From Sandaracinus amylolyticus (GTDB lineage: Bacteria > Myxococcota_A > Polyangia > Polyangiales > Sandaracinaceae): DNA of 64,000 bases. Positions within the stretch are counted from its first letter, which is position 1, and every line of letters begins with the position of its first letter. A model generated the notes under the pieces. The model was not told the origin of the DNA. It ran no database searches and saw nothing but the letters and a program-made list of their open reading frames with translations. Location of the stretch: assembly GCF_021631985.1 (NCBI RefSeq), contig NZ_CP070225.1, positions 9,424,001 to 9,488,000 on the forward strand, read 5' to 3'. Shown in pieces: positions 42,526-47,522 of the stretch. Position numbers and translations under genes: made by a program.

Positions 42526-43329
42526 TCAGGAGGGCATGAGCGGGGTGAGCCAGCCCGCGAGCGAGCTGAGGTTGCGCGACTGGATGTAGATGCGGCCCTG
42601 TCCGTTGAACTCGCAGACGAGCCCTTCGCCCGACGCCATGAACCCGAGCAGGCCGCCGCCCGCGCTCTTGATGTTCATGGTGAGGTTGCCCTCGTACCCG
42701 ACGAGGTGGCCGTTATCGACCATGTACGGGCCGTTGATGTCGATCGCCTGGATGCCGCCGTAGCTGGTGAACCAGAGATCACCGCTGCCGCTCACCTCGA
42801 GCATGAAGGCGCCCTCCTTCGCGAGGATCGACTTCAGCCCGCCGAACTTCATCTTCACGTCGATGTCGCCCGCGCTCGCGACGTACGCGCCGCTCGAGAG
42901 CACGAGCTTCTCGCCGGGGTTGAGGCGGCGATGCGCGATCTGCCCGCTCATCGTCGGCGCGATCCACACGCTGCCGGGCTGCGGCGCGCTGAAGTGGTTC
43001 ACGAAGAACGTCTCACCGCCGACGACCTTGCGGATGAACGCGATCATCAGCGCCCAGATCTTCGCGAAGAAGCCCGCGCTCTTGCCCGCGTTCATCTTCA
43101 CTTCCATCGCGACGTGCGAGTGGCGCGCGACCATCGAGCCCGCCTCCGCGATCACGACCTGACCGGGCTGCAGATCGACGCGCAGCATCGCGAACGAAGG
43201 GCCGTGCGTGATGGCGTGCGCGACGCTCGCGCCGCCCGTCGGCGCCGGCGAGATGCCCTGCATGGGCTGTCCGTAGCCGCCGGGATGGCCCGGGTGCTGC
43301 GGCTGCGCGTACTGCGGCTGCTGATCCAT
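42526..43329 (-). CDS. AIM24-family protein with Gln/Pro tail (first of three)
   Basis: This is the first and longest copy (267 residues). A Gln/Pro/Gly/Tyr-rich disordered N-terminus of about 35 residues (MDQQPQYAQPQHPGHPGGY) precedes the AIM24 domain (SMVARHSHVAMEVKMNAG...VVGGETFFVNHFSAPQPGSV...GLKSILAKEGAFMLEVSGSG...GLVCEFNGQGRIYIQSRN). Tails of this composition often mediate weak multivalent contacts or membrane binding. A strong ribosome site (GAGGAGACATCG) decides the ATG at 43329. The promoter for the trio should lie in the 836-base gap upstream. Confidence 0.9.
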   Translation of the reverse strand: MDQQPQYAQPQHPGHPGGYGQPMQGISPAPTGGASVAHAITHGPSFAMLRVDLQPGQVVIAEAGSMVARHSHVAMEVKMNAGKSAGFFAKIWALMIAFIRKVVGGETFFVNHFSAPQPGSVWIAPTMSGQIAHRRLNPGEKLVLSSGAYVASAGDIDVKMKFGGLKSILAKEGAFMLEVSGSGDLWFTSYGGIQAIDINGPYMVDNGHLVGYEGNLTMNIKSAGGGLLGFMASGEGLVCEFNGQGRIYIQSRNLSSLAGWLTPLMPS

Positions 43330-44165
43330 CGATGTCTCCTCCGCGACCCGCCCCACGGTCGTCCTACCGTGCGGCCAAGGCGCTCCGAATACGTCGAGGG
43401 GTGTCCCCATTTCCCCCGAGCGTTTCGCTTCTAACCCGCGCGCCGCGACGAGGGCAACGGGGTCGTCGGGCATCTGCGCGACTTCAAACTTCTTTCGGCG
43501 CTGCCCGCGGGGGCGATCGCGACGGATCCGTCACCGGGCCGTCTCGCTCCGGATCCGCGCCGACACGCCGAGGGAAACCCCATGTCTCGGGTGCGATCCG
43601 GTGCGATACGGACCCTGGCTCTTGCGGTTTTCTGGCTGGGGCACCACGACAGCTTGTATGGTTCGCGAAATGACAGTGCACATATCGTCATCTCGCGTCA
43701 TCGTCCCCGATACGTCCCGCCGGGACGCTCTCCGCATCCCCTGTGATGCACACTCAAGGCGCTGGAATCGTTGACGAAATCGGAAATGGAAAAAACATGC
43801 GTTCAGACCCCTTGACCACCCCTCCGGTGCCCGTTTATCCAGGGGGTCCTTCCACAAGCCGTCGTGGGTTCGGGTGGACGACGAGCCCACCCCTTGTAGG
43901 TGCGAGACAGCGGATTGTGTGACAGGACGTACCGTCCCCGGCCGAGGCCGGCCGGTACGTAGCTCGATCGGGGACGTGTTCCCCTTTGATGGGAAGCAGG
44001 GGGCAACCATGCCCTGGGCGCGCCGCCCAGGGACCGGGGCCTCTTTGTCCTTCTTTGTCTTGTCGTTCTTCTCCGTTGCCGTCGGGCAGGACCTGGGGGG
44101 TCTTGCCAAGACCCAGCGGAAATCGCCGCGACTGCGGCCCATGTGGAAGTGGCGGGAGGAAAGCC
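43330..44165. other. long structured leader upstream of nrdJ
   Basis: These 836 bases lie between the divergent AIM24 and nrdJ genes. They are AT-richer than the rest and hold no believable gene. Several hairpins can be drawn on the plus strand: 43713-43727 (CGTCCC loop GGGACG), 43864-43890 (9 pairs), 43927-43960 (ACGTACCG ... CGGTACGT), 44012-44032 (see separate entry) and 44098-44114 (GGGTCTT-GCC-AAGACCC). A -35-like TTGACG stands at 43771-43776, without a good -10. This looks like a cis-regulatory RNA. A cobalamin riboswitch would make sense, but I cannot find a clear B12 box. Confidence 0.5.
44012..44032 (+). terminator. possible attenuator hairpin in the nrdJ leader
   Basis: A perfect 9-base stem (CCCTGGGCG / CGCCCAGGG) with loop CGC is followed, after about ten bases, by a long pyrimidine tract rich in T (CTCTTTGTCCTTCTTTG). 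It stands 133 bases before the nrdJ start. As a terminator it is imperfect, because the T run is delayed; as the switching element of a riboswitch it is well placed. Confidence 0.4.
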
Positions 44166-47100
44166 GTGTCCGTAGATACTCGAACCGTGAGCAACACCGT
44201 CGACAGCAAGCCGCAAGGTTCCGCGAGCGCGCGTCACCACGCGTTGCCCATCGAGGAGCAAGGCCTCCGGATCGCGCGGCGCTGGACCCGTTCGGGCGTC
44301 GATCCGCTCGACGAGATCATCTACGAGCTGCGCGACAGCGTCATCACGAACCCCGACGGCTCCGTCGTGTTCGAGATGCGCGGCGCGGAGATCCCCGAGG
44401 ACTGGTCGCAGCTCGCGACCGACATCGCGGTCTCCAAGTACTTCCGCAAGGCCGGCGTGAAGGGCGACGCGAAGAAGGGCGAGACGAGCGCGAAGATGCT
44501 CGTCCACCGCATCGCGCGCACCGTGCGCGAGGCCGGCGAGGCACAGGGCGGCTACTTCGCGACGAAGGAAGATGCCGACGCGTTCGAGGCCGAGCTCTCG
44601 TACCTGCTCGTGACCCAGCGCGCCGCGTTCAACTCGCCGGTCTGGTTCAACCTCGGCCTCTACCAGCGCTACGGCATCGAGGGCCAGGGCGGCAACTGGG
44701 CCTGGGACGAGAAGAAGGACGACGTCCTCGAGACGGCGAACGCGTACGAGCGCCCCCAGTGCTCGGCGTGCTTCATCCAGTCGGTCGGCGACGACCTCAT
44801 GGGCATCTACGAGCTCGTGAAGAACGAGGCGCGCCTCTTCAAGTACGGCTCGGGCACCGGCACGAACTTCAGCAACCTGCGCGGACGCCAGGAGAAGCTG
44901 AGCGGCGGCGGCACCAGCTCGGGCCTGATGAGCTTCCTCGAGGTGCTCGATCGCGCGGCGGGCGCGACGAAGTCGGGCGGGACCACGCGGCGCGCCGCGA
45001 AGATGGTCTGCCTCGACATGGACCACCCCGAGATCGTCGACTTCATCGAGTGGAAGACCCGCGAGGAGAAGAAGGCGCGCGCGCTGATCGCGTCGGGCTA
45101 TCCCGCGGACTTCAACGGCGAGGCCTATCACACGGTCAGCGGCCAGAACTCGAACAACTCGATCCGCGTGAACGACGAGTTCATGCGTGCCGTCGAGCAG
45201 GACGGTGAGTGGCAGACGACGATGCGCACGACCGGCGAGGTCGTCGACACGTACAAGGCGCGTGAGCTCTGGCGCAAGATCTCCGACAGCGCGTGGCAGT
45301 GCGCCGATCCCGGCGTGCAGTACGACTCGACGATCAACGCGTGGCACACGTGCCCCAACACGGATCGCATCAACGCGAGCAATCCGTGCAGCGAGTACAT
45401 GTTCCTCGACGACACGGCGTGTAACCTGTCGTCGATCAATCTCGTGAAGTTCCTCGACGAGAACGGGAAGTTCGACGTCGAGGGATATCGCCACGCGATC
45501 CGGATCATGTTCACGAGCCAGGAGATCCTGGTCGATCACTCGAGCTATCCGACGAAGCGCATCGGCAAGAACAGCCACGACTATCGTCCGCTCGGGCTCG
45601 GCTACGCGAACCTCGGCACGCTGCTGATGCGGCTCGGCATCCCGTACGACAGCGACGCGGGCCGCGCGTGGTGTGGCGCGCTGACTGCCATCCTCACCGG
45701 TCACGCGTACAAGACCAGCGCGGAGATGGCGGCGAGCAAGGGCCCGTTCCCGGGCTTCATGCGCAACCGCCAGCCGATGCTGCGCGTGATGGGCAAGCAC
45801 CGCGACATGGCCTACATGATCGACAAGGCGGAGTTCCCCGCCATCGTCGGCAGCGGTGACACCGGCGTTCCCCACGATCTCCTCGGCGCGGCGCGCGAGG
45901 ACTGGGATCACGCGGTCGAGCTCGGCACGCAGTACGGATATCGCAACGCGCAGGCGACCGTGCTCGCGCCGACCGGCACCATCGGCCTGCTGATGGACTG
46001 CGACACGACGGGCATCGAGCCCGACTTCGCGCTGGTGAAGTTCAAGAAGCTCGCGGGCGGCGGGTACTTCAAGATCGTCAACCAGAGCGTGCCCGACGCG
46101 CTGCGCAACCTGAGCTATTCGCCCGCGCAGATCGCCGACATCATCGCGTACGTCAGCGGCACCAACACGTTCACCGGCGCGCCCTACCTCACGCGCTCGA
46201 TGCTGATCGAGAAGGGCCTGACCGAGAGCGAGCTGAGCAAGGCGGAGAAGGCGCTGCCCGGCGTGTTCGACGCGTCGCAGGCGCTCTCGCCGTGGGTGAT
46301 CGGGACGAGCGCGTTCGAGCGCCTCGGCATCAGGCCCGAGCAGTACAACAAGCCGGGCTTCACGCTGCTCGAGCACTTCGGCCTGACCCGCAAGCAGATC
46401 GAGGAGCTCAACGACGTCGTCATCGGCCGCATGACGGTCGAGGGCGCGCCGCACCTGCGCAAGGAGCACTACGCGGTGTTCGACTGCGCGAACCGCTGCG
46501 GCAAGCACGGCAAGCGCTTCATCGAGCCGATGGCGCACGTGCGCATGATGGCGGCGGCGCAGCCGTTCCTCAGCGGCGCGATCAGCAAGACCGTGAACCT
46601 GCCCAACGAGGCGACGATCGAAGAGGTCGAGCGCATCTATCACGAGGGCTGGAAGCTCGGGCTCAAGGCGGTCGCGCTCTATCGCGACGGGTGCAAGGCG
46701 AGCCAGCCGCTCTCGACCTCGAGCGCGGAGAAGGAAGACAAGGCCGAGGCGAAGAGCGAGAAGATCGCTGCGGCGCCCGCGCCTGCTCTGGTGCCCCAGG
46801 TCGTCACCGAGCCCGCGAAGCCGCGCACGGTCGAGAACGCGAAGGCGCCGCCGATCAGCGTGCGTCACCGCATGAGCAAGCGTCGCCGCGGCTTCACGCA
46901 GGAGGCGAAGGTCGGAGGCCACAAGGTCTTCCTCCGCACCGGCGAGTACGAGAACGGCGCGCTCGGTGAGATCTTCATCGACATGCACAAGGAAGGCGCG
47001 GCCTTCCGCTCGCTGATGAACTGCTTCGCGATCAGCGTCTCGATGGGCCTCCAGCACGGAGTCCCGCTGAGCGCGTACGTCGATCAGTTCACGTTCACGC

Positions 47101-47522
47101 GCTTCGAGCCGGGCGGTCTCGTCGAGGGCCACCCGAACATCAAGTTCAGCACGTCGATCATCGACTACGTCTTCCGCGTGCTCGGAGTCGAGTACCTCCA
47201 GCGCTACGACTTCGCGCAGGTGCCGCCCGCGGAGACGCAGATGGAGCTCTCGAACCCGACGGACGCCGACGCGGTGCAGAAGCTCCCGGCGGGGCAGATC
47301 GACAGCATGGCGCCCCCGGCGATCACCAAGGCGCCGCAGATCGAGCTCGCGTTCGCGGGCGCCGATCACGCGGCGAAGTCGGGCAGCGGCAGCGTGCTCG
47401 ACCAGCAGCTCGGCGAGATGATGGGCGACGCGCCGATGTGCGATCAGTGCGGCCACATCACGGTCCGCAACGGCGCTTGTTACAAGTGCTTGAACTGCGG
47501 CGCATCGCTCGGCTGCAGCTGA
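44166..47522 (+). CDS. nrdJ: adenosylcobalamin-dependent ribonucleotide reductase (class II)
   Basis: This 1118-residue enzyme makes deoxynucleotides from ribonucleotides with a thiyl radical generated from adenosylcobalamin, without need for oxygen. Visible residues are the first redox Cys in ERPQCSACFIQS, the catalytic Cys/Glu in SNPCSEYMFLDDTACNLSS (also holding the second redox Cys) and the phosphate-binding APTGTIGLLMDCDTTG. A C-terminal Cys cluster (CDQCG...CYKCLNCGASLGC) reloads the active site. A charged Lys/Ala linker (about 845-905) joins an extra domain typical of long NrdJ. GTG 44166 has a GGGAGGAAA ribosome site. No intein or split is seen. Confidence 0.96.
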   Translation: MSVDTRTVSNTVDSKPQGSASARHHALPIEEQGLRIARRWTRSGVDPLDEIIYELRDSVITNPDGSVVFEMRGAEIPEDWSQLATDIAVSKYFRKAGVKGDAKKGETSAKMLVHRIARTVREAGEAQGGYFATKEDADAFEAELSYLLVTQRAAFNSPVWFNLGLYQRYGIEGQGGNWAWDEKKDDVLETANAYERPQCSACFIQSVGDDLMGIYELVKNEARLFKYGSGTGTNFSNLRGRQEKLSGGGTSSGLMSFLEVLDRAAGATKSGGTTRRAAKMVCLDMDHPEIVDFIEWKTREEKKARALIASGYPADFNGEAYHTVSGQNSNNSIRVNDEFMRAVEQDGEWQTTMRTTGEVVDTYKARELWRKISDSAWQCADPGVQYDSTINAWHTCPNTDRINASNPCSEYMFLDDTACNLSSINLVKFLDENGKFDVEGYRHAIRIMFTSQEILVDHSSYPTKRIGKNSHDYRPLGLGYANLGTLLMRLGIPYDSDAGRAWCGALTAILTGHAYKTSAEMAASKGPFPGFMRNRQPMLRVMGKHRDMAYMIDKAEFPAIVGSGDTGVPHDLLGAAREDWDHAVELGTQYGYRNAQATVLAPTGTIGLLMDCDTTGIEPDFALVKFKKLAGGGYFKIVNQSVPDALRNLSYSPAQIADIIAYVSGTNTFTGAPYLTRSMLIEKGLTESELSKAEKALPGVFDASQALSPWVIGTSAFERLGIRPEQYNKPGFTLLEHFGLTRKQIEELNDVVIGRMTVEGAPHLRKEHYAVFDCANRCGKHGKRFIEPMAHVRMMAAAQPFLSGAISKTVNLPNEATIEEVERIYHEGWKLGLKAVALYRDGCKASQPLSTSSAEKEDKAEAKSEKIAAAPAPALVPQVVTEPAKPRTVENAKAPPISVRHRMSKRRRGFTQEAKVGGHKVFLRTGEYENGALGEIFIDMHKEGAAFRSLMNCFAISVSMGLQHGVPLSAYVDQFTFTRFEPGGLVEGHPNIKFSTSIIDYVFRVLGVEYLQRYDFAQVPPAETQMELSNPTDADAVQKLPAGQIDSMAPPAITKAPQIELAFAGADHAAKSGSGSVLDQQLGEMMGDAPMCDQCGHITVRNGACYKCLNCGASLGCS

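Follow-up and report, generated by a model that had tools for sequence, protein, structure and literature searches.

The leader of nrdJ in Sandaracinus amylolyticus raises the question of whether this gene, which encodes an adenosylcobalamin-dependent ribonucleotide reductase, is controlled by an RNA that senses its cofactor or by proteins acting on DNA. A preliminary description of the locus had proposed a cis-regulatory RNA, possibly a cobalamin riboswitch, the described nrdJ-motif RNA or a new class. All positions below refer to the window, the whole 64,000-nucleotide stretch of DNA that was analysed, unless a contig (C1) or leader (L) number is given.

The nrdJ leader

The locus comprises two divergent genes and the region between them:

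42526-43332, minus strand: TIGR00266-family gene, divergent neighbour of nrdJ
43333-44165, plus strand: intergenic control region, flanked by the divergent TIGR00266-family gene and by nrdJ
44166-47522, plus strand: nrdJ, class II adenosylcobalamin-dependent ribonucleotide reductase, with TIGR02504 and PRK06556 matches

The nrdJ product scores 599.6 bits against TIGR02504 (cut-off 399.95) and 1322.1 bits against PRK06556 (cut-off 859). Its reading frame starts with GTG at 44166, preceded by a GGGAGG Shine-Dalgarno sequence, and the nrdJ orthologs of the family have a similar start context. The region 43333-44165 is indeed free of genes, as the preliminary description had stated. Its claim that the leader is AT-richer than its surroundings holds for the middle part, 43601-43999, where the GC content is 60.7% compared with 66.7% for nrdJ and 72.6% for the whole window, but not for 43333-43600 (69.8%). 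The sister genome (G001, same genus) has a full-length leader that is 88% identical. Within the order nrdJ is present in 169 of 183 genomes, and the segment 43600-43935 was matched by blastn in two of the 183, the genome under study counted. The leader region is real and regulatory, with promoter and operator DNA as the parts most clearly conserved.

The leader was compared with a sample of 90 nrdJ leaders from the 169 nrdJ-bearing genomes of the order, nine of them from its own family and 81 from outside it, and with 20 leaders from 72 further genomes of the class that had a match. Tests that required the proximal box pair, promoter P2 or the distal box pair (described below) used 48, 51, 44, 27 or 26 leaders. 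The genome searched comprises 10.96 Mb in two contigs.

B12 sensing at the class I reductase

The search with cmscan that the preliminary description had suggested returned one tRNA in the whole window and no Rfam family at cut-off in the nrdJ leader, which matched none of the Rfam 15 models at that level. At E ≤ 10 the leader gave no cobalamin match; the only hit was MEG3_2 on the minus strand, at 18.7 bits against a cut-off of 60. The weak likeness to a B12 box that had been pointed out at 43990-44008 is therefore not reflected in a cobalamin match even at this permissive threshold. At gathering scores no Rfam match was obtained in the 73 leaders scanned of the 90.

Six RF00174 matches, one of them partial, were found in the genome. 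RF00174 lies ahead of the B12-independent class I nrdA both here (100 bits) and in the sister genome (96.7 bits), two of the six nrdA-like loci scanned. The expectation that the B12-dependent reductase would be under a cobalamin riboswitch is thus reversed: with RF00174 on nrdAB and not on nrdJ, B12 sensing sits on the B12-independent isozyme. A B12 riboswitch also controls class I nrdAB in Streptomyces.

The nrdAB leader of this genome (C1:8505542-8505826, corresponding to L024 355-639) contains, in addition, an NrdR-like pair of boxes at L024 355 and 388, 33 bp apart. The riboswitch occupies L024 426-639, between this pair and the nrdA ATG at 844, and the beta-subunit gene is next. Double control of the alternative reductase, by the NrdR-like pair and the riboswitch, is possible.

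A pair of NrdR boxes at the predicted main promoter

NrdR boxes precede nrdJ in many bacteria. The nine family leaders were first read by eye; the recurring blocks were a TTGACC promoter followed by palindromic boxes and, further upstream, another set of boxes. In the window the promoter and the nearer boxes are the following:

43812-43841, plus strand: main promoter P2, TTGACC-18 bp-TATCCA, predicted, recurring in relatives
43846-44165, plus strand: predicted 5' UTR of nrdJ from P2 (start predicted), with local hairpins
43852-43867: proximal NrdR box 1, CCACAAGCCGTCGTGG, 10/10 scored positions, just downstream of the predicted start
43884-43899: proximal NrdR box 2, AGCCCACCCCTTGTAG, 6/10 scored positions, C4 and G13 kept, spacing 32 bp

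Box pairs were scored by their matches to CCACNANNNNTNGTGG, with 10 scored positions per box and 20 per pair. The pair 43852/43884 is the sole pair in the 64-kb window with a score of at least 16/20. Among the 90 leaders, pairs scoring at least 16 occur in 7, 15, 18 and 27 leaders at start-to-start distances of 30, 31, 32 and 33 bp, respectively. Off this peak, spacings of 17-60 bp are each found in at most two leaders, except for six each at 35 and 51 bp, and the shuffle mean is 0.04; because real leaders outscore shuffles at every spacing, the off-peak spacings are the better control. Altogether 54 of the 90 leaders carry such a pair (6/9 within the family and 48/81 outside it) and 36 do not, compared with 0 of 90 tiles of the window. 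As the motif was first spotted by eye in the family leaders and at nrdA, near-independent tests are provided only by the leaders from outside the family (81) and from outside the order (20). Outside the order, 13 of the 20 leaders have a pair scoring at least 15 at 30-33 bp; at this threshold nine leaders have pairs at 31 bp and five at 32 bp, versus four at 34 bp and three at 24 bp.

Both pairs seen in the window, 43852/43884 and the more distant 43612/43644, have a spacing of 32 bp, within the NrdR range of 30-33 bp start to start, and they adjoin the predicted promoters P2 and P1 of nrdJ. An NrdR operator consists of two 16-bp boxes separated by 14-17 bp, a spacer range taken from PMC12051234. 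C4 and G13 are present in all four boxes of the window; across the relatives they are kept in 113 and 114 of 114 sites, which were selected by a score that includes both positions. Against acaCwAtATaTwGtgt, which we take to be the canonical consensus, the window boxes reach at most 11/16, a value equalled elsewhere in the leader. The box form in the order is mostly CCMCNANNNNTNGTGG, and a near-canonical box, ACACAATATATAGTGT, occurs in one leader outside the order (L141).

Evidence for P2 comes from relatives: of 51 leaders, 44 have TTGAC or TTGAT at 34-47 bp ahead of the proximal pair, with a background of about 4%; a consensus promoter scan of the window did not list P2. The first 61 nt of the nrdJ UTR are identical in the sister genome and the remainder has diverged. 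NrdR itself is encoded once in the genome, at C1:2837360 (TIGR00244, 199.4 bits, cut-off 124.65), not beside nrdJ. The protein retains D15, R17 and the RRRR sequence; D15, R17 and the arginine run of NrdR are tied to DNA binding in PMC9110341.

A second box pair and a predicted distal promoter

Further upstream, a second pair of boxes overlaps a candidate promoter element:

43612-43627: distal NrdR box 1, ACCCTGGCTCTTGCGG, weak in sequence and assigned by its position in relatives, C4 and G13 kept
43644-43659: distal NrdR box 2, CCACGACAGCTTGTAT, identical in the sister genome, 32 bp from distal box 1
43657-43662, plus strand: TATGGT, predicted -10 element of P1, overlapping distal box 2

The distal pair of the window scores 14/20, a score that nine pairs in the 64-kb window reach, so that its assignment rests on position in relatives. 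When second pairs scoring at least 14 were collected, the place not being preselected, one 10-bp offset bin held 20 of the 48 leaders that had a proximal pair and sufficient upstream sequence, and the other bins at most two each. A second pair scoring at least 13 is located 237-258 bp upstream in 29 of the 48 leaders, a place window that was picked after the offset-bin result; the shuffle mean was 0.58 and the maximum 3. In a stricter listing of 27 genomes, the centre-to-centre distance of the two pairs is 240 bp in the window and the sister genome, 237 bp in G008, 247-251 bp in 22 more genomes, and 258.5 and 263.5 bp in two. Likewise, proximal box 1 follows distal box 2 at a distance of 205-219 bp in all but two of the 27 genomes, which have 226 and 231 bp. 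These genomes span 10 genera of three families, plus a weak case, G092, from another family; a single genus (g9) contributes 16 of them, so that the count overstates their independence.

Of 26 leaders, 24 have a TANNNT sequence at position 14 of their distal box 2, compared with a background of 0.3% per position. This overlap would account for the fact that distal box 2 mostly ends in GTA rather than GTG. The -35 element of P1 is poor in the window. Two separate pairs scoring at least 15 were seen in none of the 20 outside-order leaders, which suggests that the second nrdJ promoter may be a later addition.

RNA folding of the leader

Perfect hairpins, of which the leader had been said to be full, are present in the form of short ones at 44012-44032 and 44098-44114 and of a longer one in the transcribed operator:

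43864-43890, plus strand: hairpin of the transcribed operator, nine pairs closing a 9-nt loop, formed between the facing halves of the proximal boxes

Overall folding goes only mildly beyond that of shuffled sequences, with z = -2.15 for 43846-44165 (3/100 shuffles as stable) and z = -2.26 for the whole 836 nt (1/20 shuffles as stable). The hairpin with a T tract, which would have been a terminator, corresponds to one site (44036-44051); since 0.7 such sites are expected by chance, a terminator is without support. The whole UTR was aligned with that of the sister genome alone, and one of 96 pairs was compensatory. A UTR stem at 44084-44107 (GGCAGGACC/GGTCTTGCC) still pairs in the sister genome, where it shows one compensatory change.

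Because the proximal boxes are inverted repeats, their transcript can form a hairpin, and the sequence 43864-43890 is identical in the sister genome. In the window the operator spacer has a z of -1.3, and 22 of 200 spacer shuffles are equally stable. Over the 44 leaders that have both P2 and a proximal pair, real spacers on average fold better than shuffled ones, with a mean z of -1.49; values are negative in 18 of the 22 named genera, the mean over 23 groups is -0.78 and the mean for genus g9 (16 genomes) is -2.98. The effect is absent from the distal pairs (mean z -0.22, 26 pairs) and from the pairs outside the order (mean z -0.05, 13 pairs). In the 26 distinct sequences with 33-bp spacing, 89.4% of the cells across four spacer pairs are paired, and 17 cells in three of the four pairs changed on both sides, versus 1-5 when the pairing was slid. 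The 15 distinct sequences with 32-bp spacing, which include that of the window, yielded no consensus structure. Alifold analysis of the proximal region in the 16 g9 genomes gave a z of -3.95. The covariation terms of the alifold runs were small and positive, at 1.2 and 0.49. For the P1-P2 interval, RNAalifold performed no better than on column-shuffled alignments (z -0.23 with 16 genomes and -0.31 with five), and no structure was obtained with all 31.

The covariation check put forward in the preliminary description turned out differently for different parts of the leader: the operator hairpin gave a positive result, chiefly in a single genus, the P1-P2 interval gave none, and in the UTR of two genomes one pair of 96 was compensatory. 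Since the operator hairpin covaries, if mainly in a genus other than that of the window, it may have an additional role in RNA. The two-fold symmetry of the NrdR complex is a possible reason for the spacer pairing at the level of DNA, although the distal pairs show no such effect.

Other elements of the leader

Two additional candidate sites are located upstream of the proximal operator:

43521-43532: palindrome GACGGATCCGTC, candidate protein-binding site, in 8/9 family leaders
43670-43691: dyad ATGAC-N12-GTCAT, candidate regulator site, just downstream of P1

The palindrome is found in none of the 81 leaders outside the family (mono-shuffle mean 0.0). The dyad, in the form RTGRC-N10-12-GTCAY, is present in 16 of the 90 leaders, other families included, with a mono-shuffle mean of 1.8. 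Exact-match searches found neither the dyad block in genome_contigs nor the P2 block in viral_contigs, although very near records may be omitted from such results.

A copy of 43600-43844, 81% identical and without the proximal NrdR pair, is located at C1:944306-944549 of the same genome (G000; L004 4307-4550), and its dyad differs by two bases. A 112-aa reading frame follows 169 bp downstream of the copy, and a Phage_integrase gene is 1.3 kb away. The 112-aa frame has no Pfam match, and a search of 18 other genomes revealed no relative. ARAGORN detected no tRNA near the copy, and no second copy of the upstream control region was found in the sister genome. A shared RNA was considered as the basis of this copy and rejected; the copy stops at the P2 start predicted here, in keeping with the copying of a promoter.

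Control of nrdJ by LexA was also considered and not adopted. The sequence GTTCAG beside P2 resembles half of what we take to be the Myxococcus LexA box, but among the aligned relatives it occupies that place in the sister genome only; CTGAACRG occurs elsewhere in 16 of the 90 leaders (mono-shuffle mean 3.3). The segment 44083-44139, which by blastn resembles a sequence at C1:8365563 and one in the sister genome, was rejected as a dispersed repeat, with three forward and one reverse pattern sites versus two and one in the reversed control. In leaders of family f4, e.g. that of G040, TGTGGATAA-like sequences are seen a few bases after proximal box 2. They resemble a DnaA box and were not seen in the window.

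Proposed mechanism and alternatives

The region 43333-44165 is very probably the transcriptional control region of nrdJ, with two NrdR-gated promoters and with B12 sensing placed elsewhere. The best reading is a known type of control, by NrdR, in an unusual form with two promoters and two operators. The transcription starts, the NrdR binding and the repression at nrdJ are predictions from sequence. The sigma-70-type promoter P2 would start the nrdJ transcript near 43848. NrdR, reading the dATP/ATP balance, would bind as a tetramer to the two 16-bp boxes at about +4 and +36, three helical turns apart, and when deoxynucleotides are plentiful the bound NrdR would block P2. P1, at about 43660, would be governed by a weaker NrdR pair of its own, which overlaps the -10 element of P1 and is centred 240 bp upstream of the proximal pair; with an NrdR pair at each of P1 and P2, nrdJ would have two NrdR-gated promoters. 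B12 would be sensed through the cobalamin riboswitch on the alternative class I nrdAB. One genome thus seems to split its signals, with deoxynucleotides read via NrdR sites on both reductases and B12 via a riboswitch on the B12-independent one.

A leader that senses B12 as a cobalamin riboswitch or as the described nrdJ-motif RNA would suit a B12-dependent enzyme in a genome with six cobalamin riboswitch matches. The leader has no such match at gathering score or at E ≤ 10, none was found in the 73 related leaders, and RF00174 stands at nrdA of this and the sister genome instead, so this explanation is almost certainly wrong. A regulatory RNA of a new kind, either the operator hairpin or stems within 43900-44165, acting alongside NrdR on DNA, is unlikely, though it has more in its favour: the hairpin-prone proximal spacers, the compensatory changes in the 33-bp set, the alifold and UTR z values, and the lack of effect in distal and outside-order pairs, the distal ones lying outside the predicted P2 transcript. 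The spacer effect, however, comes mostly from g9, the 32-bp set that includes the window has no consensus structure, the covariation terms are small and positive, the UTR has its one compensatory pair of 96, and the boxes pair with each other simply through their shared palindrome. What the preliminary description called a cis-regulatory RNA is a regulatory region, not a riboswitch or a known RNA class, with a small RNA element inside the operator as a possibility. We tentatively allow the proximal operator a double role, with low probability, as an NrdR site that shuts P2 in DNA and as a 5' hairpin that acts on message stability, translation or regulation in RNA.

The P1-P2 interval, 43663-43845, could instead be a small non-coding RNA gene driven by P1. 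Such a gene would account for the near-constant length between distal box 2 and proximal box 1 and for the conserved sequence islands in between; given that RNAalifold did no better than on column shuffles and that Rfam gave no match, it is very unlikely. Equally improbable is that the distal boxes serve the divergent TIGR00266-family gene and not nrdJ. That gene does start at 43332, 280 bp from the distal pair and in the opposite direction, but the distance between the distal and proximal centres is kept at 237-251 bp in 25 of 27 genomes and the distal TANNNT reads towards nrdJ in 24 of 26. The proposed NrdR control of both promoters replaces the riboswitch guess with a mechanism that can be tested. 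Its less usual features are the near-fixed distance between the operators in several relatives and the hairpin from the transcribed operator, which raises the question of whether a single sequence could act in control at the level of both DNA and RNA. NrdR tetramers on the two pairs, which are 240 or about 250 bp apart with a difference of one helical turn, might possibly be joined by a DNA loop. The word 'loop' is absent from the main text of PMC12176259, and a literature search of open-licence papers found no title reporting a two-pair nrdJ arrangement.

Comparison with known systems

The cobalamin riboswitch family RF00174 occurs at a reductase operon of this genome, but at the class I nrdAB operon and not at nrdJ. 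A close parallel for nrdJ is provided by Streptomyces coelicolor, in which both the class II nrdRJ and nrdAB carry NrdR operators (PMC9110341). In both systems the promoter of a class II reductase has two palindromic boxes spaced by about three helical turns, each box contains two critical GC pairs that are 9 bp apart, and NrdR has D15, R17 and the arginine run. In contrast to S. coelicolor, the boxes described here are CCAC...GTGG-like, nrdR is not beside nrdJ, and two box pairs accompany two predicted promoters.

Two NrdR pairs upstream of one operon or gene are also found at nrdAB of Listeria monocytogenes, where, according to PMC12051234, the distal pair binds more weakly than the proximal one; the authors term the layout atypical and consider it unclear what the distal pair does. 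The Listeria nrdAB is a class I operon of the Bacillota, whereas nrdJ is a class II gene, and a separate promoter is predicted here at the distal pair. The second NrdR pair of nrdJ recurs at a near-fixed distance of about 240-250 bp in several genera, which makes the role of the distal pair testable by altered spacing.
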